From the NCBI GenBank assembly GCA_903836465.1, contig CAILRB010000035.1, forward strand, positions 1 to 64,000: DNA of 64,000 bases, read 5' to 3'. Each line of letters begins with the position of its first letter. The first letter of the stretch is position 1. The DNA comes from an uncultured Chlorobiaceae bacterium (GTDB taxonomy: Bacteria; Bacteroidota; Chlorobiia; Chlorobiales; Chlorobiaceae). Position numbers and translations under genes: made by a program. Positions 54,388-64,000 of this stretch are shown here, piece after piece. The notes beneath the pieces were generated by a model, which did not search any database, was not told the origin of the DNA, and saw nothing but the letters and a program-made list of their open reading frames with translations.

Positions 54388-54589
54388 AAAATCGGGAGAT
54401 TTCAGGTATATTCTAACTATAATCGATAAAATCAGTTATGAATCATGGGCGAAGTATGTGACTACAGGAACTGGCTCCGCACAGGTAAAATAGCTATTAT
54501 CTGTGACATGAGAAGCGTTTGCAGATTTCCGGTCAGATAAGAGTATATTGTATTGCATTTGCAACGCTAACATGACTATCGCAGGACGT

Positions 54590-54859
54590 ATGAAAAGCGC
54601 ATCATTACCGTCACTCCGCGTCGAACCCGAGCTTCGCCAAGCGGCCGAACAGGCTCTGCAGCAGGGGGAAACCCTCTCTTCATTCATCGAGGCATCGCTT
54701 CGGGCGAACATCGAACGTCGGCTCAGTCAGAAGGAGTTCATTGCCCGAGGTCTTGCTTCGCAGGAGCGAGCCCGCAGGACCGGAGAGTATGAGGACGCTC
54801 AGGTAGTCTTGGACCAGCTTCAGAAGATGCTCCTCGAAGAAAAAAAGAAGAGGCCGTGA
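54590..54859 (+). CDS. Ribbon-helix-helix antitoxin (YlcI/YnfO-like)
   Basis: 89 residues from ATG 54590, chosen because GCAGGA precedes it; in-frame ATGs at 54548 and 54572 exist. ASLPSLRVEPELRQAAEQAL is the ribbon and first helix, LSSFIEASLRANIERR the second, and the acidic-basic tail (AQVVLDQLQKMLLEEKKK) should wrap the toxin. It overlaps the next gene by four bases (GTGA). Confidence 0.75.
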   Translation: MKSASLPSLRVEPELRQAAEQALQQGETLSSFIEASLRANIERRLSQKEFIARGLASQERARRTGEYEDAQVVLDQLQKMLLEEKKKRP

Positions 54860-55155
54860 AATTCACCGTCCGCTTTACCCCCGATGCTAAAGATGACCTT
54901 GTCCGGCTCTATACATTTCTTCTCGAACAAGATCTGAAGGCTGCGGAAGAGGCGCTTGATGCACTGTCAAAGGGGTTCGACTTTTTAAGGGAATTTCCTT
55001 TCAGTTGCCGCAAAGCCCTTCCTGAAAATCCGCTGCTTCGGGAACTGCTCGTTTCATTCGGAAACTCGGGTTATGTTGCCCTTTTCGAAATTGAGGATCA
55101 GGCTACAGTAACCATTCTCGCAATACGCCACCAGCGGGAGGATGACTATTATTGA
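54856..55155 (+). CDS. RelE/ParE-family toxin
   Basis: 99 residues with a GTG start overlapping the antitoxin stop. VRFTPDAKDDLVRLYTFLLE, then GFDFLREFPFSCRKAL and VTILAIRHQREDDYY are the ParE pattern, including the C-terminal arginine-rich strand. ParE proteins poison gyrase. A degraded copy of its middle part is at 54029-54098. Confidence 0.82.
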   Translation: MKFTVRFTPDAKDDLVRLYTFLLEQDLKAAEEALDALSKGFDFLREFPFSCRKALPENPLLRELLVSFGNSGYVALFEIEDQATVTILAIRHQREDDYY

Positions 55156-55288: not shown

Positions 55289-58200
55289 ATGCCACGTGAT
55301 TTCAAGGGAGTTATGGTTTCGAGCACCTTCACCGACCTGGAGGAGCACCGTGCTGCGTTGATCAAAATTATTAATGCTGCTGGGTTTATGGCTGTGGTGA
55401 TGGAGCATGATTCAGCTAAATCTGACGTGGATGTGATTGACTCTTCGTTGGGGATGGTTGGAGATGCCGCAGTCTATATTGGTATCATCACAAAGAAGAT
55501 TGGCCAGATTCCGAAATGTTCCACACGTAATCCTGGTAATGTTTCAATCACTGAACTGGAATTCAACAAAGCGGTTAATCTCGGTCTGCCAATTCTGTTG
55601 TTCCTCATGGGAGATGGACATCCTGTTCTTGAATGCCAGATTGAAATTAAGGCTGGTAATCGCAAGAAACTGAACGCCTTCCGTGAGCGGGCAAAGAAGA
55701 TGGGGCCGGATTCGGAGGTTCATCGTGTTTATGCCGAGTTCAACAGCCTTGATGAGTTCAAGGAAAAGGCTGCGAAAGCACTTTCCGATCTGCGCCTTGA
55801 TTTTCAGAAAACCGATTCTACATATTCAGCAGGCAAGGAAACTCCTCAACCCGATGACACAAAGCATAAAGAGAACGTAGAGTGCTTCCAGACCATCCTT
55901 AAACAGGAGTTGGGTTACATTCGTATGCTTGGGCTTCCGGGTGTTGAGAGTATCAAGGTCAACCTGAACAACGACACCTTTGTGCCCTTGCGCCTCTCCG
56001 ACAGGCAGGAGAGAGGTGGCCTTGTTTCAAAAGAGAGCGACCAGCAAGGGAGTGACCATATTCTCTATCCCGACGAGATCATGAAGCAGGCTTTCCATGA
56101 CCGGAGAGGTCGCCGGATGTTGCTTGTTATCGGCGACCCTGGCGCTGGCAAAACAACGCTGCTCAAGTATTATGCCCTTTGTGCGCTTGAGGATTACATG
56201 AAGCTTGGATTCAGCGCTCCAGTCAATGTCTTCTACCTGCCATTGCGCGATCTTGTTCGCGACAAGGAGGGGCGTTGCACTGAAAATCTGCCAGCAGCCC
56301 TTGCCGGATGGTCAGCAAAGCATCATCAAACCATTGATGCAAAGGTTTTCAATGACTGGCTGAACAATGACATTTCACTGGTGCTGCTTGATGGCCTTGA
56401 TGAAATCAGCAATATCGAAGAGCGAAAAGAGGTGTGCCACTGGATCGACCATGCCTTCAGCGGCTTCAGCAAGGCATATATTGTGGTGACATCCCGGGCG
56501 ACAGGGTATCGCAAAGATGAAGGTATTGAGCTTGAGTCGGAGTACGAACGAGCCGATGTGCAGGACTTTACAGCGGAGCAGCAGGAGCGATTTTTGCGAA
56601 ACTGGTTCAGGGCAGCATTTCTGAAAGAGCCTTGTGAGAAGGGCGTTAACGAGGAGAGTTGGCAGGAAAGGCAAAAAGCAGAAGCCGAAAAACGCACCAC
56701 TACCATTGTTGCGCACCTCAAGGTCGAGAAAAACAAGGGGCTTCGTCAACTGGCTGCCATACCCATGATTCTGCAGATCATGGCTATTTTGTGGAAGGAC
56801 AGGGACTATATGCCTGAAAGCCGCGTGAAACTTTACGAAGCTGCACTCGATTATCTGCTTGAATTTCGCGACAAACGCCGGGATATCAAACCCCTGCTCT
56901 CTGCAATGTGCGCCCGGCGAGTACTTGCTCCGGTCTCACTCTGGATGCAGGAAAGTCTCAAAAAAGATGAAGCGACCAGAGCCGACATCCACACTGAAAT
57001 GCAGAAATTACTCGATACGCTTGATACTCCCCCAACGGCAGAAGCGTTTTGCGATTATCTGGTCAAACGAGCAGGTTTGCTTGTCGAGACCGGTGGCAAA
57101 GAGTATCTCTTCCGCCATAAATCATTCCGTGAATATCTTGCAGGAGTTCAGCTCAAGGATGATCGACCCTATGAGCATCTTAACCAGCTTGTTGCACATT
57201 TCGGGGAAGATTGGTGGGAAGAACCACTTCGCTTTTTTATTGCACTGGTTGATGCCAACGTGTTTGACCTCTTTATGCAAAAGCTCTTTGATGCATCACA
57301 GAGTGAGGAGATGACACCAAAGCAGCAATTGTTGCTGCAAACAATTATCGAAGAGGCTCCGCAGAAAAAGGTTGATGCCCTGTGCGACAAGCTGCTTGAA
57401 CCGGCGACAACAGCCAGTCGGCAGCGGGTGATTCTCGACTGCCTCAAAGCCATCAATAAACCGGCCTCTCTTGACGCGTTGCTGGAGTTCCGGGAGAAAA
57501 AACTTGCCGGAGAGAACAGGGACGTTATCAACCGCACTGAGGAGGTGATTCTGGCGCTTGGAGGTCAGCCACTTGCGTCAAAAGCTGACAAAAGTGAGAG
57601 CGGAAAACCGGCATCGTTCCGTAATCCCAACGAACAGAATGCGGAGTACATCCTGATTCCGGGTGGAAACTACTGGTATTCAGTGACAGACAAAATTGTT
57701 GATGTGCCGGATGCTTACTTTGCCAAGTATCCGGTAACCAACAAACTTTACCGCTTCTTCATTGCATGGTTGCAGGCAAAAGAGTCACCAGTTTTGTATT
57801 CAGCATTCACCTCTGAACTGGATGCTATCGCAAATGATAACAAGTGGGGAAATAAGTTTGGCGGCTATTACAATCAAGATAAAAGTGATCTTGCCGGACT
57901 TTTTCGTTCACGGTTGGGTGAGGATCGCAAATACGATGGAGAAGATCAGCCTGTGGTTGGGGTCACCTGGTATGCTGCCAAAGCCTATTGTCTCTGGCTT
58001 TCGTTGCTTGAAGGTGATAAAACACGTTACCGTCTTCCTGATGAAAAGGAGTGGGAGTGGGCAGCAGGTGGAAAGCAAGGAACAACGGGGCAGAAAGTAC
58101 GTCCTTATCCGTGGTCGGAAGGGAAGGGCAAGCCCAACTCAACACTTGCGAACTATAATAACAACATAGGCACAACGACACCGGTTGGGAACTATCCTGA

Positions 58201-58417
58201 AGGTGCTACCCCGGAAGGGCTGTATGATATGGCGGGTAACGTTTGGGAGTGGATGGAGAATGAACATGAACAATATCCTGCATCCCGTGCATGGCGCGGG
58301 GGCTCTTGGCACATTGATGCTCTGCGCTGCTCCTCCCGGGGCGGCAGCTTTCCGGACCTCTGGGGCGGCAGCGATGTTGGTTTTCGAGTGATTCGTTCCA
58401 GTCTCTTTTCTTCCTGA
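55289..58417 (+). CDS. DUF4062-NACHT-FGE protein, NLR-like defence candidate
   Basis: 1042 residues in three parts. Residues 1-115 are DUF4062 (GVMVSSTFTDLEEHRAALIK, VYIGIITKKIG, SITELEFNKAV), an N-terminal effector or adaptor seen in bacterial NTPases. Residues about 275-640 are a NACHT NTPase with Walker A GDPGAGKTTLLKYY near 282 and Walker B LVLLDGLDE near 363. A helical region with a broad sensor-like pattern follows. Residues about 780-1042 are a formylglycine-generating-enzyme fold (YPVTNKLYRFFIAW, YRLPDEKEWEWAAGG, LYDMAGNVWEWMENE). NACHT proteins with C-terminal sensors are the bacterial relatives of NLR immunity. It is a single gene with a 130-base upstream region. Confidence 0.85.
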   Translation: MPRDFKGVMVSSTFTDLEEHRAALIKIINAAGFMAVVMEHDSAKSDVDVIDSSLGMVGDAAVYIGIITKKIGQIPKCSTRNPGNVSITELEFNKAVNLGLPILLFLMGDGHPVLECQIEIKAGNRKKLNAFRERAKKMGPDSEVHRVYAEFNSLDEFKEKAAKALSDLRLDFQKTDSTYSAGKETPQPDDTKHKENVECFQTILKQELGYIRMLGLPGVESIKVNLNNDTFVPLRLSDRQERGGLVSKESDQQGSDHILYPDEIMKQAFHDRRGRRMLLVIGDPGAGKTTLLKYYALCALEDYMKLGFSAPVNVFYLPLRDLVRDKEGRCTENLPAALAGWSAKHHQTIDAKVFNDWLNNDISLVLLDGLDEISNIEERKEVCHWIDHAFSGFSKAYIVVTSRATGYRKDEGIELESEYERADVQDFTAEQQERFLRNWFRAAFLKEPCEKGVNEESWQERQKAEAEKRTTTIVAHLKVEKNKGLRQLAAIPMILQIMAILWKDRDYMPESRVKLYEAALDYLLEFRDKRRDIKPLLSAMCARRVLAPVSLWMQESLKKDEATRADIHTEMQKLLDTLDTPPTAEAFCDYLVKRAGLLVETGGKEYLFRHKSFREYLAGVQLKDDRPYEHLNQLVAHFGEDWWEEPLRFFIALVDANVFDLFMQKLFDASQSEEMTPKQQLLLQTIIEEAPQKKVDALCDKLLEPATTASRQRVILDCLKAINKPASLDALLEFREKKLAGENRDVINRTEEVILALGGQPLASKADKSESGKPASFRNPNEQNAEYILIPGGNYWYSVTDKIVDVPDAYFAKYPVTNKLYRFFIAWLQAKESPVLYSAFTSELDAIANDNKWGNKFGGYYNQDKSDLAGLFRSRLGEDRKYDGEDQPVVGVTWYAAKAYCLWLSLLEGDKTRYRLPDEKEWEWAAGGKQGTTGQKVRPYPWSEGKGKPNSTLANYNNNIGTTTPVGNYPEGATPEGLYDMAGNVWEWMENEHEQYPASRAWRGGSWHIDALRCSSRGGSFPDLWGGSDVGFRVIRSSLFSS
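58288..58414 (+). other. Candidate DGR-type variable end of the FGE domain
   Basis: The protein ends with RAWRGGSWHIDALRCSSRGG, then SFPDLWGGSDVGFRV. This is the C-type-lectin/FGE end that diversity-generating retroelements mutate (the WRGGSW...GFR frame). Codons between (CAC, ATT, GAT, CTC, GGC, AGC, GAT, GTT) could come from A-rich template codons. No template repeat, reverse transcriptase or Avd gene is in the window, and ordinary FGE proteins have a similar end. Confidence 0.3.
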
Positions 58418-58777: not shown

Positions 58778-59518
58778 ATGAACTTCGAAAAACTGGATGC
58801 AATGAAAGCCCGGCTGGAGAGCTTCAGGCCGTTCAGCCCTGAGATGCTCGGCAATCTGCATGAGGATCTGGTGCTGCGATGGACCTATAATTCCAATGCA
58901 ATTGAGGGAAATACGCTCACCCTCAAGGAGACCAAGGTTGCGCTTGAAGGCATAACCATTGGCGGCAAAACCATGCGCGAGCACTTCGAGGCTATCAACC
59001 ACCGGGAAGCCATTCATTATGTTGAAGCTCTTGTTCAGAAAAACGAGCCTCTTTCGGAGTGGCAGATAAAATCATTGCATCAGCTTATCCTGAAAAATAT
59101 TGATGACCGGAATGCCGGGCGATACCGGATGCAGAATGTTGTTATTTCCGGCGCTGAGCACCGCCCGCCTGATTACCTGAATGTGCCTGAAGAGATGGAG
59201 GCTTTTGCTGTACAGACGGCAGTGAATAAACAATGTTTGCATCCTGTTGAACATGCGGCAAGAGTGCACGGCGACTTTGTAAAAATCCACCCCTTTGTCG
59301 ACGGCAATGGACGAACCGCACGCCTGCTGATGAACCTTGAACTGATGAAGGCCGGGTTTCCCCCTGCCGTGCTGACCGTAGAAAAGCGTCTTGGCTATTA
59401 CGAAACGCTTGATATTGCTCACATAAAAGGTGACTACGAGCCCTTTCTGTCGTTGATGGCTGAAACGGTTGAACAGGCTTTTGAACCTTACTGGTATGTG
59501 CTGGGTGTTGGCAGATGA
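58778..59518 (+). CDS. Fic family protein
   Basis: 246 residues. The active motif HPFVDGNGRTARLL is near residue 172 and matches HxFxDGNGRxxR. The class II inhibitory helix motif (S/T)xxxE(G/N) reads SNAIEG at residues 39-44, so the enzyme is self-restrained. It should transfer AMP or a related group to a hydroxyl of a target protein. A GGAG box precedes the ATG. The 360 bases between it and the NACHT gene hold no gene I can support. Confidence 0.9.
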   Translation: MNFEKLDAMKARLESFRPFSPEMLGNLHEDLVLRWTYNSNAIEGNTLTLKETKVALEGITIGGKTMREHFEAINHREAIHYVEALVQKNEPLSEWQIKSLHQLILKNIDDRNAGRYRMQNVVISGAEHRPPDYLNVPEEMEAFAVQTAVNKQCLHPVEHAARVHGDFVKIHPFVDGNGRTARLLMNLELMKAGFPPAVLTVEKRLGYYETLDIAHIKGDYEPFLSLMAETVEQAFEPYWYVLGVGR

Positions 59519-59690: not shown

Positions 59691-59863
59691 GGGATGCGAA
59701 AGTTAGAATATTGAGGGATTTTTTTCCCCGTGTCAGTTGCTTTTTTTGTGTTCATTATAAGCCTCAGGCAATCGATATCTTTCTTTGCAATACATCTGAT
59801 TATGCCATGATGAGCTAATTTTTGCTTAAAAGCCACTTAACCTACTTTCATTCGGAATTACGC

Positions 59864-62644
59864 ATGCTGGGATTAAAACTTAGGGATGAATTTCTTGGGG
59901 CGCACATGCCCGGCACCGCAATTTCGTTGAGAACAAGCGATAATAAAGGCGCCGCACAGAGGCCTGCCGATTACATTTTGTCGATCACCTGGCCCACTGC
60001 CGATATCCAGACAGCCCTGAAGGCGCTCAGCCTGAAAAACAGTGGACGTCCGGTCGTTCTCATTGGAGGTCGTGGCCGAGGCAAATCGCACATTATGGCG
60101 GTGATGCATCATGCTCTTCACTCTCCTGAGCTTGTGGAATCCTGGCTCAAAGAGTGGGGTGGAAAGCTTGGAGGTAATGAGCTGAACAAGCTGGAGCCGC
60201 TCAAGGGGTATTTTCCCATCTCCGAGCCTGTGCAAAATCAGGAATATCCGCTTCTCTGGGATCTGTTGTTTGAACGTCATCCGAAAGGAGAGTATTACCG
60301 AGGCCATTTTGAAAGCATGCATCAACCATTCCCTCCCCGTACTCTGCTGGAGAAGATGTTTGAAGAGCAGCCCGTTGCTTTAATCCTTGACGAATTTCAG
60401 ACCTGGTATACCGGCCTGCCTGATAAAAACCCTGCAACCGGCCTATTGCTCAAGCAGTATGCCTTCAACTTTATACAGATTCTCTCTGAAATTTCAGTTG
60501 ATCGCCCGGAACTGCTTATTTTTGTGATCTCGGTGCTCAATAATGAAAATGACGCCTTTCAGCAGGTACATCGGCAATCACCAGTTATCATTGATTTTCG
60601 GGGACCGTCAGCCAAGCAGGATCGACAGAAACTTCTTTTGCATAGGCTTTTTGAAAATCGGCGTAATATTGAGCAATCCAGCATCATCTCAACGGCCACT
60701 ACCTACTCAACCGAGAGGTTTCGCTTGCTCTATCCCAACAAATCTGAAGCTGAAAAAGAACGAATTCAGCATGAGGTCTTTAGTTGCTGGCCCTTCAGTC
60801 CTGAGCTGCTCGACCTTCTTGAAGACCACATTTTGCTCTCTTTGGCGGCACAGGAGACAAGGGATCTTATCCGGATTCTTGCCCAGGTATTTCGCAGTCG
60901 TGGGGAAGCTGTCCCGGTCATCACACCCGCTGATTTTTTTGTTGATGGAGAATCGGACGAAGTACAGACACTTGTTGACTCCATCGCAGTTCAGGCAGGT
61001 CAGGAAAAACTCCGCCAGATAGCCCAACGAAACCTTTTTACCGTGCGTGAATCTGGCACCAATGTCCCCAATGTTCGTGAACTTGTCAGCTCAATCTGGA
61101 TGCGCTCTATATCTCCCGGAAAAAATGCGGGTGGAACCCCGGCTGAGCTGCACCTTGATATTACTCGTGGCGTTTTTATCGACAACAACTCCTTTCAGGC
61201 AGAATTGGCTCTGCTCATTGAGAACAGTGTCAATATTCATGGTGACGAAGTGCCGGGCGGGCCTCTCTGGTTTGGAATCAACGAGAACCCTCGTGCAAAA
61301 GTACGGGCATGTGCCAAAAACGACAAACTCTGGCATCTCAATGCGGTTCAAACGGGAGGTACAATTCTCTATCCAGGTCAGGATATCCAGTGGATTCGGA
61401 AAAACCTGAAATATGAACTTGCAGGTCAGGATACTCGCGAAAATATCTCCCGAATTATTGTTCTTGGTCCGAACTGGCGTGATGATCCCTGGGCCGAGCT
61501 TGACGAAACTGACAACCCTTCAAAATGGGACAGACCGGTGCTTCTGGTCATTCCTGAAAACATAGAGAGCGGTGAATTGAATGCAGCACTGGGCCTATGG
61601 CTGGCAAAGCACGTCCAGAAAAGGCGCAACACCATTCGTTTTTTACTTCCATCCGCCGATATGCCGGGCCTCTACAACGATGAAGAGCTTCTCTACTCTG
61701 CCCGTTGCAGCTACCTTTGTTCCCCTGAAGGTTGGGGCTCCGACCCTGTATATCGAGCTTTACACCAGGATTTCAACAGACCTTTTCGTACATCGTTAAA
61801 GTCTCGCTGCAATCGGCTGGCTCTCTTGCGAAAATGGAATTTTCAGCAACCACAGCACTGTATTTTTGATGTCGAAAAAATAGCCGCGCAAGGTGGAGAG
61901 ATTCCGCCCGCTGTTGAGGCAAAGATTCTCTCTGACCTTTTTGACAAAAGTGAATTCCACTCTTTTGTACTGCAACGAGCAAAAGACTCCGATTTCATCG
62001 GCTCACTGCTCGACGATCTGATTGAGCCACCACCCCCAAATGCCGGAGAGGCAATTCCCTTTCTTGGTGAGACAAAAATCCACGAGTTTGTGCTTGAAAT
62101 TGCCGCCGCTGGGGATATTGTGCTTAATGTTGATGGCAGATGGATAGTCCGGCGCTCCGAAGATGGTACCGATAAGGAGGCATTGAACTACTTTAAATCC
62201 AACGCATTTCGCACTGGTCAGGAGATGCGTCAGATTCAGCTTGGACTGCCAGGAGCTGTTGGTGGTGGAACCGTCACAGCCACACATGTCCCTGCTGCTG
62301 TTGCTGTTGTTCAGCCAGAGAGTAAGGATAGTAAGCCGTACTCATCTTCCGGATCCGGGGAAGGTATCATCAGTGGAATCGGTGGTCAGAATGCTGATGG
62401 TGAAATTACCCGGCCAAGCCCCCTTCCCGTCGCCAGCAACCGTAAATCTGCTGAGCCAGCAACCGGTATCAACCTTTCAGGCTGTTTTGAGTCATGGGGA
62501 GTCTCTTCGGATCAACCGATTGAAACCGCACGTATTGAATTTTCTGGTCTTACCTCTCAGCAGATCAAGCAGATTCTGCAACGCATACCCTCTTCATTCA
62601 AAGCGACACTTGATATCACCTGGCGTGAAGGAGGCGTGCAATGA
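59864..62644 (+). CDS. DUF499 AAA-type ATPase of a PglZ-linked defence operon
   Basis: 926 residues from ATG 59864 (MLGLKLRDEFLGAHMPGTAI); a TTG frame extends to 59822 but DUF499 proteins begin with this phrase. Walker A is GGRGRGKSH at residues 68-76. Walker B is PVALILDEFQTWY near 165. The C-terminus passes through a low-complexity linker (SSSGSGEGIISGIGG) near residue 830 to a small domain. DUF499 ATPases occur in phage-resistance gene sets next to PglZ or DUF1156 methyltransferases. The stop overlaps the PglZ start by four bases. Confidence 0.85.
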   Translation: MLGLKLRDEFLGAHMPGTAISLRTSDNKGAAQRPADYILSITWPTADIQTALKALSLKNSGRPVVLIGGRGRGKSHIMAVMHHALHSPELVESWLKEWGGKLGGNELNKLEPLKGYFPISEPVQNQEYPLLWDLLFERHPKGEYYRGHFESMHQPFPPRTLLEKMFEEQPVALILDEFQTWYTGLPDKNPATGLLLKQYAFNFIQILSEISVDRPELLIFVISVLNNENDAFQQVHRQSPVIIDFRGPSAKQDRQKLLLHRLFENRRNIEQSSIISTATTYSTERFRLLYPNKSEAEKERIQHEVFSCWPFSPELLDLLEDHILLSLAAQETRDLIRILAQVFRSRGEAVPVITPADFFVDGESDEVQTLVDSIAVQAGQEKLRQIAQRNLFTVRESGTNVPNVRELVSSIWMRSISPGKNAGGTPAELHLDITRGVFIDNNSFQAELALLIENSVNIHGDEVPGGPLWFGINENPRAKVRACAKNDKLWHLNAVQTGGTILYPGQDIQWIRKNLKYELAGQDTRENISRIIVLGPNWRDDPWAELDETDNPSKWDRPVLLVIPENIESGELNAALGLWLAKHVQKRRNTIRFLLPSADMPGLYNDEELLYSARCSYLCSPEGWGSDPVYRALHQDFNRPFRTSLKSRCNRLALLRKWNFQQPQHCIFDVEKIAAQGGEIPPAVEAKILSDLFDKSEFHSFVLQRAKDSDFIGSLLDDLIEPPPPNAGEAIPFLGETKIHEFVLEIAAAGDIVLNVDGRWIVRRSEDGTDKEALNYFKSNAFRTGQEMRQIQLGLPGAVGGGTVTATHVPAAVAVVQPESKDSKPYSSSGSGEGIISGIGGQNADGEITRPSPLPVASNRKSAEPATGINLSGCFESWGVSSDQPIETARIEFSGLTSQQIKQILQRIPSSFKATLDITWREGGVQ

Positions 62645-63600
62645 CCGAGGCTGTAAACTGGAAGACTCTCATTTTCGGTGTGCACGAACCCGCAATGGCC
62701 TGGGTGAAGATATTCTCCGCCCTGCTCTCTCTTGCCCGGCAGAGTTCATCGCCGGTTACGCTTCATGATGCAACAGTTACTCCTGACCGACTGTTGAGCG
62801 AAGCCGCTTGGGAACTTTGGGAAGCCTTTCCCCTGACAGCAGTAAAAACTTCAGCCAGCCTCAAAGAGTGGACACGTCAAAGTCCGGGAAAGGCTGTTCT
62901 CATCCTTGACGCTCTTTCATTACGGGAGTTGTCTCTTCTGCTTGGCGCGGCAGAAGCAAGGGGTATTCAGCCGCTGGAGGTCAAAGTTACTGGTTCAGAG
63001 TGTCCCTCAACCACCGACCACTTTGCCAAAGCCATCGGGTTGTCATCAAGAAGCGCCTTGGCCAACGACGGGAAACCTGGCACCCTGTCACTTTTCGACG
63101 GCAATTGTTTTACGGATGTGCTCAGTATGCCATTCGAGGATTGCGCCATTCCTCCTGCACCAAACATAGTGGTCTGGCACTCCTGGCTTGATGACCTGAT
63201 TCACCTTCAACTGAAAAATCCTGACCAGATCGCCAGCATCTCTTCAACCGTTTTGCAGAGCGACGGCTTTTGGAGTTTTATCAACAAGCTTCGGCAGGGA
63301 AGGGCTCTGGTTATCACTTCAGACCATGGGTATGCTGTCAGTAAACGCTTCTCTTCTGAAATTGAAGAACCGGCCGCAATAGAGACATTAAGAAAAACCT
63401 TTGGAGCCTCCCGCAACAAGGCAGTCGCTGACATAGGGCCAAAAAAATTTATGCCCCCAATTGTCATGACGCACAACAATCAGCAGATCATTATGGGGCA
63501 ACGCAAATGGAAGGTTCAGGGTGGATTCCCCAACGTATGTCATGGAGGAATGACGCTTCTGGAAGTTGCTGTACCCTGGATAGAGTTTTCCGCACTATAA
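62641..63600 (+). CDS. Short PglZ-domain protein
   Basis: 319 residues of the alkaline-phosphatase superfamily. The metal-binding landmarks are VLILDALSLREL (Asp 90, Ser 93), HSWLDDLIH near 180-188 and VITSDHGYAVS (Asp 228, His 229). PglZ domains are found in BREX and related phage-exclusion systems; here the domain is alone, without the long N-terminal extension of BREX PglZ. It is translationally coupled to the DUF499 gene and ten bases before the DUF4365 gene. Confidence 0.8.
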   Translation: MTEAVNWKTLIFGVHEPAMAWVKIFSALLSLARQSSSPVTLHDATVTPDRLLSEAAWELWEAFPLTAVKTSASLKEWTRQSPGKAVLILDALSLRELSLLLGAAEARGIQPLEVKVTGSECPSTTDHFAKAIGLSSRSALANDGKPGTLSLFDGNCFTDVLSMPFEDCAIPPAPNIVVWHSWLDDLIHLQLKNPDQIASISSTVLQSDGFWSFINKLRQGRALVITSDHGYAVSKRFSSEIEEPAAIETLRKTFGASRNKAVADIGPKKFMPPIVMTHNNQQIIMGQRKWKVQGGFPNVCHGGMTLLEVAVPWIEFSAL

Positions 63601-63610
63601 TATTCCGACT

Positions 63611-64000
63611 ATGCTGACTATTCAACATACTGAAGAGGATCTGAGCCGGGCCTACGTTCAGGCAATTGCCGCAAAAGCAGGGGTGAACCTGAGTATGAAA
63701 GATCGCTCACACGATTATACCATTGATGGCACATTTCATCAGGTATCATACTTTAATGGCCATTACCACGAAACCGGCTTCAGCCTTGATTTTCAGCTCA
63801 AAGCATCCAAAAACTGCATCATTGGGGATACGCATCTTCGTTATGACCTCGATATTGAAACCCATAACTATCTGGTTGATCGTGCACAAAAATCAGGGAC
63901 GACACCGGTAATACTTATTGTGATGGCATTACCTGAAGCTGAAAGTGAGTGGTTATCACTCTCGGAAGAGGAACTGGTGTTACGTCGCTGCTGTTACTGG
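63611..64000 (+). CDS. DUF4365 protein, N-terminal part, cut by the window edge
   Basis: 130 codons from ATG 63611 with no stop before the edge. LSRAYVQAIAAKAGVNLSM, then HDYTIDGTFHQVSYF, and DFQLKASKNCIIGDTHL with NYLVDRAQKSGTTPVILIVM fit DUF4365, a restriction-endonuclease-like fold (D...QLKA) often in defence loci. It is ten bases after the PglZ gene, so it belongs to the same operon and is a good nuclease candidate. Confidence 0.72.
   Translation, partial: MLTIQHTEEDLSRAYVQAIAAKAGVNLSMKDRSHDYTIDGTFHQVSYFNGHYHETGFSLDFQLKASKNCIIGDTHLRYDLDIETHNYLVDRAQKSGTTPVILIVMALPEAESEWLSLSEEELVLRRCCYW

Follow-up and report, generated by a model that had tools for sequence, protein, structure and literature searches.

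A probable Type-3 BREX-related operon carrying two accessory modules in an uncultured Chlorobiaceae bacterium

Among the relatives of the bacteriophage exclusion (BREX) systems, the Type-3 BREX-related (BR) system described by Rakesh and Krishnan in 2026 is composed of a DUF499 ATPase with a C-terminal RRM-like domain, a DUF1156 N6-methyltransferase, a Swi2/Snf2 helicase without nuclease fusion and a stand-alone PglZ, whereas Type-1 BR helicases carry a fused nuclease; an iSTAND protein is found in 82% of Type-3 BR taxa, the published loci span 569 taxa, and operons with auxiliary nucleases have been reported (PMC12839542). In BREX, an accessory position is known between pglX and pglZ: among about 9,000 genomes in which these two genes are co-localised, it occurs in about 7,000 (PMC11341690). 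Besides, the DUF4365 domain is known as the DNase domain of the SPARDA protein TmuRE, whose activity depends on the triggering of its Argonaute partner and whose Q62A/K64A mutant serves as inactive control (PMC10810196). Here we analyse an operon at the right edge of a 64,000-nucleotide stretch of DNA (the window) from an uncultured Chlorobiaceae bacterium, namely positions 1-64000 of contig C35 in a 2.77-Mb draft genome. This locus is very probably a Type-3 BR system of restriction-modification-like nature with two accessory modules, DUF4365-M02B and OLD-DUF4276, its core being of the ordinary Type-3 BR kind and the accessory load newly seen.

Operon layout and core genes

The sequence-only reading of the window had described three coupled genes, for an ATPase, a PglZ and a DUF4365 protein, within a Pgl/BREX-related defence operon, and had expected DUF1156 methyltransferase (MTase) and helicase genes beyond the window edge. 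The coupling is confirmed by the coordinates (59864-62644, 62641-63600 and 63611 onward), with a 4-bp overlap between the DUF499 and PglZ genes and a 10-bp gap between PglZ and DUF4365, the link to Pgl/BREX defence is supported by homology, and both expected genes do lie past position 64000, where six more genes follow DUF4365 without a break. The operon thereby comprises nine genes on the same strand (C35 coordinates are those of the window carried past 64000, and L002 is the same locus in its own numbering):

59864..62644, +, DUF499/BrxC-related AAA+ ATPase, 926 aa (Pfam, Walker motifs, orthologs)
62641..63600, +, stand-alone PglZ, alkaline-phosphatase/PorX-type metal-dependent hydrolase, 319 aa (PADLOC, PDB profile, invariant residues)
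63611..64000 in the window, ending at C35:64132, +, DUF4365 nuclease-like protein, 173 aa (PADLOC PDC-M02A)
C35:64129-65286, +, M02B, 385 aa (PADLOC PDC-M02B)
C35:65289-68828 (L002 10289-13828), +, DUF1156 MTase, 1179 aa
C35:68850-70037 (start L002 13850, end L002 15037), +, OLD-type/AAA_21 ATPase, 395 aa (PADLOC HEC-01)
C35:70034-70591 (end L002 15591), +, DUF4276 protein, 185 aa (PADLOC HEC-01)
C35:70595-71092, +, 165-aa iSTAND-like protein
C35:71073-73862, +, Snf2/RapA-like helicase, 929 aa (start codon ATG, L002:16073)
after the helicase, opposite strand, menD (translation read by eye, no family search)

DUF4365 and M02B also overlap by 4 bp, and 2 bp separate M02B from the MTase gene. NCBIfam and Pfam searches concur on the domain content of the operon and, because of the long intact reading frames, the family matches and the conserved order, the observed genes cannot be due to chance.

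A PglZ-anchored scan of genome contigs yielded 15 loci, and more were gathered from genome, plasmid and viral collections. When the inserts are set aside, the core reads DUF499-PglZ-MTase-165aa-helicase, an order that recurs in 34 loci with a DUF499 ortholog at the head. Its hosts are Chlorobiaceae, Desulfosarcina and Desulfotignum (Desulfobacterota), a Methylococcaceae metagenome-assembled genome (MAG), several Alphaproteobacteria and an Eremiobacterota MAG, and it is also found on plasmids of Ensifer, Aminobacter, Candidatus Tenderia and Klebsiella and on contigs classed as viral. This PglZ type is carried by 37 plasmid records. Homology and gene order show a core made up of a DUF499-type ATPase, a stand-alone PglZ with a conserved metal site, an adenine methyltransferase of the DUF1156 family, a 165-aa protein at the position of the BrxB-like iSTAND and a nuclease-less Snf2 helicase, of which the ATPase, PglZ, MTase and helicase are Type-3 BR features.

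Concerning the individual proteins, the intact P-loop, PglZ metal residues and DUF4365 core of the sequence-only reading all hold. In the ATPase, the Walker A motif at residue 68 (GGRGRGKS) and the Walker B motif at 172 (ALILDE) are intact, its orthologs carry the RefSeq annotation DUF499, and an alternative upstream TTG at 59822 would yield 940 aa. In PglZ, which carries no extra domains, the candidate metal ligands D90, D184, H188, D228, H229 and H301 and the candidate nucleophile S93 are invariant in 21 homologues. This protein has no Pfam match; it matches the PADLOC PglZ (E 1.7e-5) and, as a profile against the PDB, PorX (E 1.7e-4) and a BREX PglZ chain (E 3.4e-4), while the 11 best structural matches of its fold model are all PorX. 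The MTase matches NCBIfam DUF1156_antiphage (E 4e-22, under the cut-off) and Pfam DUF1156 (E 9e-5), contains FMGGG and DPPF motifs, and is related to HmaB in PADLOC, as the helicase is to HmaA. Snf2 and RapA_C matches were obtained for the helicase, whose best PDB relative is RapA, and no nuclease domain was recognised across its 929 aa. Finally, the position of the 165-aa protein is conserved among core loci, and its model, with a predicted local distance difference test score (pLDDT) of 78, gives weak, mostly P-loop-type fold matches (best E 0.13), BrxB coming at rank 47 (E 1.2).

Several results weigh against the reading of the locus given above. The Pfam DUF499 match of the ATPase is weak (E 4.9e-4, 18.4 bits versus a 23-bit cut-off), the DUF1156 Pfam score of the MTase is under the curated cut-off, and the PglZ model is of low confidence (mean pLDDT 63). 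In addition, the weak fold matches make the 165-aa protein only iSTAND-like, its identity not being firm, and M02B has no usable match in the PDB (single sequence and profile) or in Pfam over 13 homologues.

Other system classes, raised by PADLOC and NCBIfam matches, were rejected. Canonical BREX (types 1-6) calls for BrxC, a large multi-domain PglZ and a BrxX-type MTase, whereas the ATPase matches BrxC at E 0.053 only and PglZ has 319 aa. Hma, or Type-1 BR, expects three genes, with a helicase that is usually nuclease-fused and no PglZ, whereas here PglZ is present and no fused nuclease is seen. As for DISARM, a DrmD-like helicase similarity is its sole support.

DUF4365-M02B inside and outside the operon

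The Pfam match of DUF4365 is clear (74 bits), and PADLOC recognises the adjacent DUF4365 and 385-aa proteins as M02A (204 bits) and M02B (307 bits) of PDC-M02, a PADLOC candidate on which no paper was found. Q62-L63-K64 is invariant in 11 DUF4365 homologues, the Q and K having the same numbers (62, 64) as in TmuRE. Since no relative of DUF4365 was found in the PDB, either by single sequence or by profile, its reading as a nuclease is based on its Pfam family, on the QxK motif and on published work, from which we infer a PD-(D/E)XK-type DNase.

According to the sequence-only reading, the ATPase and PglZ regulate a DUF4365 nuclease, and the short PglZ together with DUF4365 could be matched to no named system. 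This specific reading is not supported, and both observations that it had named as refuting it were made. DUF4365 pairs with M02B, and the pair occurs without ATPase or PglZ; the genes past the window edge belong to a system already catalogued, the operon having Type-3 BR composition (PMC12839542). Across genomes, the DUF499-PglZ-DUF4365 triplet does not recur: it was seen in the window locus only, and no other intact core locus carries DUF4365. The annotation of the DUF4365 gene should hence group it with M02B rather than PglZ, which removes a false "new triplet". At the second Chlorobium locus (L015 7576-8178), M02B has an in-frame internal deletion (residues ~98-278 gone) and there is no DUF4365 gene.

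Elsewhere, DUF4365-M02B occurs by itself on unrelated plasmids and chromosomes, and the only core-type gene close to it is one Snf2-type helicase match in L050. M02B is found without core genes on plasmids of Methylobacterium, Pusillibacter, Rhizobium, Gluconobacter, Phaeobacter, Tistrella and Pigmentibacter, five of these seven having a DUF4365 gene, annotated or recovered, directly upstream. Among 297 Desulfobacterota genomes, this PglZ is present in 7 and M02B in 2, with an overlap of 0. In viral contigs, no M02B was confirmed.

Orphan DUF4365-M02B pairs were found in three Chlorobium genomes (G014, G018, G030), at 87-88% nucleotide identity and with both genes intact, and no PglZ of this type occurs in these three genomes. 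The pairs are flanked by 57-69 bp of the PglZ 3' end and by the first bases of the MTase gene. In the one genome where it was translated, the orphan PglZ tail contains in-frame stops (NVYC*GMML*DV), and the others show the same decayed sequence. Between orphan pair and embedded copy, the ratio of nonsynonymous to synonymous divergence (dN/dS) is 0.07-0.08, that is, purifying selection, most of this constraint being attributable to either branch; a comparison between the two orphan copies yields 0.13 and 0.07, on few changes. The simplest account is that these genomes lost the core and kept the module, and DUF4365-M02B therefore probably works by itself. Judged by gene content, the pair is shown to be independent of the core, and DUF4365 as an effector of the core is rejected on account of its absence at other loci. 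Embedded and stranded copies of one module in close genomes thus offer a natural comparison for the independence of accessory modules, and it is this life history that is worth following.

Accessory junctions and mosaic evolution

A junction was taken as occupied when the gap between core genes exceeded 350 bp. Occupied junctions amount to 0/34 for DUF499-PglZ, 9/32 for PglZ-MTase, 6/25 for MTase-165aa and 1/25 for 165aa-helicase, figures that are given as counts with no test because the loci are related and form no independent sample. The PglZ-MTase junction is a recurrent insertion position, with the following contents:

DUF4365-M02B: window locus
RHH+PIN: L052, similar in L080
SIR2+HerA: Klebsiella plasmids, L060
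Fic: L078
PDC-M47A/B, related to PD-T4-4: L077
GajA homologue (Gabija-like), UvrD-like gene (from translation reading) and others: L081
288-aa gene and PemK-like gene (the latter from translation reading): L022

In L018, an OLD-type ATPase follows PglZ, and the contig stops before any MTase. The core with SIR2-HerA (L060 8683-21285) lies on a KPC-2 conjugative plasmid, and similar plasmids are found in Klebsiella, Enterobacter and Citrobacter. A by-eye reading of empty sites gave no sign of a target-site duplication or a mobile element at the DUF4365-M02B insert. It is a serious, if tentative, possibility that this junction is a true cargo socket, which self-sufficient modules enter, where recombination swaps them more recently than the core, and where they can outlive that core; DUF4365-M02B would then be an independent DNase defence module, embedded in one genome and stranded in others.

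The OLD-type ATPase and the DUF4276 protein are a second, PARIS-like accessory module. They match HEC-01 in PADLOC, with 678 bits over the full length and 275 bits, respectively, and the pair is found at the MTase-165aa junction in five loci. The PADLOC HEC-01 labels look swapped, PDLC04144 (HEC-01B) fitting the ATPase and PDLC04143 (HEC-01A) the DUF4276 protein; other PADLOC HEC-01A models fit the OLD-type ATPase.

The divergence between the window and the loci L015 and L020, which are MAG contigs where assembly artefacts are possible, is uneven. Synonymous divergence (dS) is 0.76-0.94 in DUF499, PglZ and helicase (0.76-0.84 for DUF499 and helicase versus L020), whereas M02B has 0.22 and the OLD ATPase 0.13, and the MTase shows low values at both its ends. 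Within the MTase, codons ~450-900 are near synonymous saturation, and amino acid identity falls from ~96% to 50-75% in these codons before returning to ~98-100%. The central block of the MTase looks like a replacement, perhaps of a specificity-bearing segment, with recent recombination of the flanks and the accessory genes. The OLD-type ATPase is 98% identical between L002 13850-15037 and L020 13001-14188, and its dS of 0.13 against 0.76-0.84 for the core indicates recent exchange of this accessory gene. A Chlorobiaceae MAG (L020 9992-12979; L051 10059-13046 is the same locus) has an in-frame fusion of the first PglZ half to the MTase, the latter from about residue 351 on, which is a deletion or an assembly artefact.

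Upstream of the operon, the window encodes a 1042-aa STAND-type protein with DUF4062, NACHT and FGE-sulfatase-like domains (55289-58417), which suggests a defence island. Between it and the operon lies a Fic-domain protein (58778-59518) matching PADLOC PDC-S04 and SoFic. Two small genes are found at 54548-55155, the second a ParE-like toxin (Pfam 7.6e-16) and the first probably its antitoxin.

Proposed mechanism and relation to known systems

Since PglZ acts as a metal-dependent nuclease in Type-1 BREX (PMC12205998) and DUF4365 as a DNase in TmuRE (PMC10810196), the core would methylate and restrict while the modules would act as backup effectors, all activities of the operon members being proposed by analogy. 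The methyltransferase would mark host DNA; the ATPase, the helicase and the 165-aa protein would scan for and sense unmarked invading DNA, which PglZ would cut or nick. The DUF4365 DNase may be held or triggered by M02B, the pair thereby being an independent backup effector rather than the effector of ATPase and PglZ, and OLD-DUF4276 may be a further one.

One could object that, in this lineage, DUF4365-M02B is now an integral BR effector, the DUF499 ATPase, helicase and PglZ detecting phage DNA and switching on DUF4365. The tight packing of the pair in the operon (10-bp gap, 4-bp overlap, 2-bp gap) does make co-expression likely, and Type-3 BR helicases lack the fused nuclease of their Type-1 counterparts (PMC12839542). 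Nevertheless, none of the other intact Type-3 BR loci has the pair, and G014, G018 and G030 retain it in intact form although their core has gone, while in G002, which has no M02A and an internally deleted M02B, the neighbouring core genes seen remain open, so that this role appears unlikely. Only slightly less doubtful is the view of the pair as a toxin-antitoxin or addiction module that would keep the operon stable without itself taking part in defence: RHH+PIN pairs of toxin-antitoxin type occupy the same junction in L052 and L080, and retention after core loss fits addiction, but M02B, with 385 aa and invariant residues across distant homologues, is unlike a small antitoxin, and in SPARDA DUF4365 serves as a DNase effector that becomes activated (PMC10810196). 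Finally, although DUF499, PglZ and DUF4365 are adjacent and coupled in this genome, a new three-gene defence system is hardly credible, given that the operon continues for six more genes and that none of the 15 loci from the PglZ scan has the triplet.

With the locus read as a Type-3 BR core bearing two accessory modules, its components can be set against the described systems. The DUF4365 domain with its QxK active-site motif is shared with the SPARDA short Argonaute nuclease (PMC10810196), whereas no APAZ or Argonaute match was obtained among the operon proteins with PADLOC, NCBIfam or Pfam. The two-gene candidate PDC-M02 has both genes in the same order and differs in that the pair is here embedded in a BR operon, while HEC-01, the Hma-embedded candidate of PADLOC, shares the OLD-type ATPase and DUF4276 with no notable difference. 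Hma (PADLOC; Type-1 BR; PMC8565338) resembles the operon through HmaA for the helicase, HmaB for the methylase and, by way of DUF499, HmaC for the ATPase; it differs by the PglZ present here, by a helicase without recognised nuclease domain and by an ATPase that none of the PADLOC HmaC models matches. Type-3 BR shares the ATPase, the MTase, the helicase without nuclease fusion, the stand-alone PglZ and a small protein at the iSTAND place, the difference being DUF4365-M02B between PglZ and MTase, DUF4365 going unmentioned in the main text of its description (PMC12839542). In the Type-1 BREX slot, accessory defence genes (BrxU, PARIS) likewise lie between the methyltransferase and PglZ genes (PMC11341690), although in another system and in reversed order, PglZ preceding the MTase in the window operon; an accessory slot between these two genes, known in BREX, is thereby extended to BR systems.

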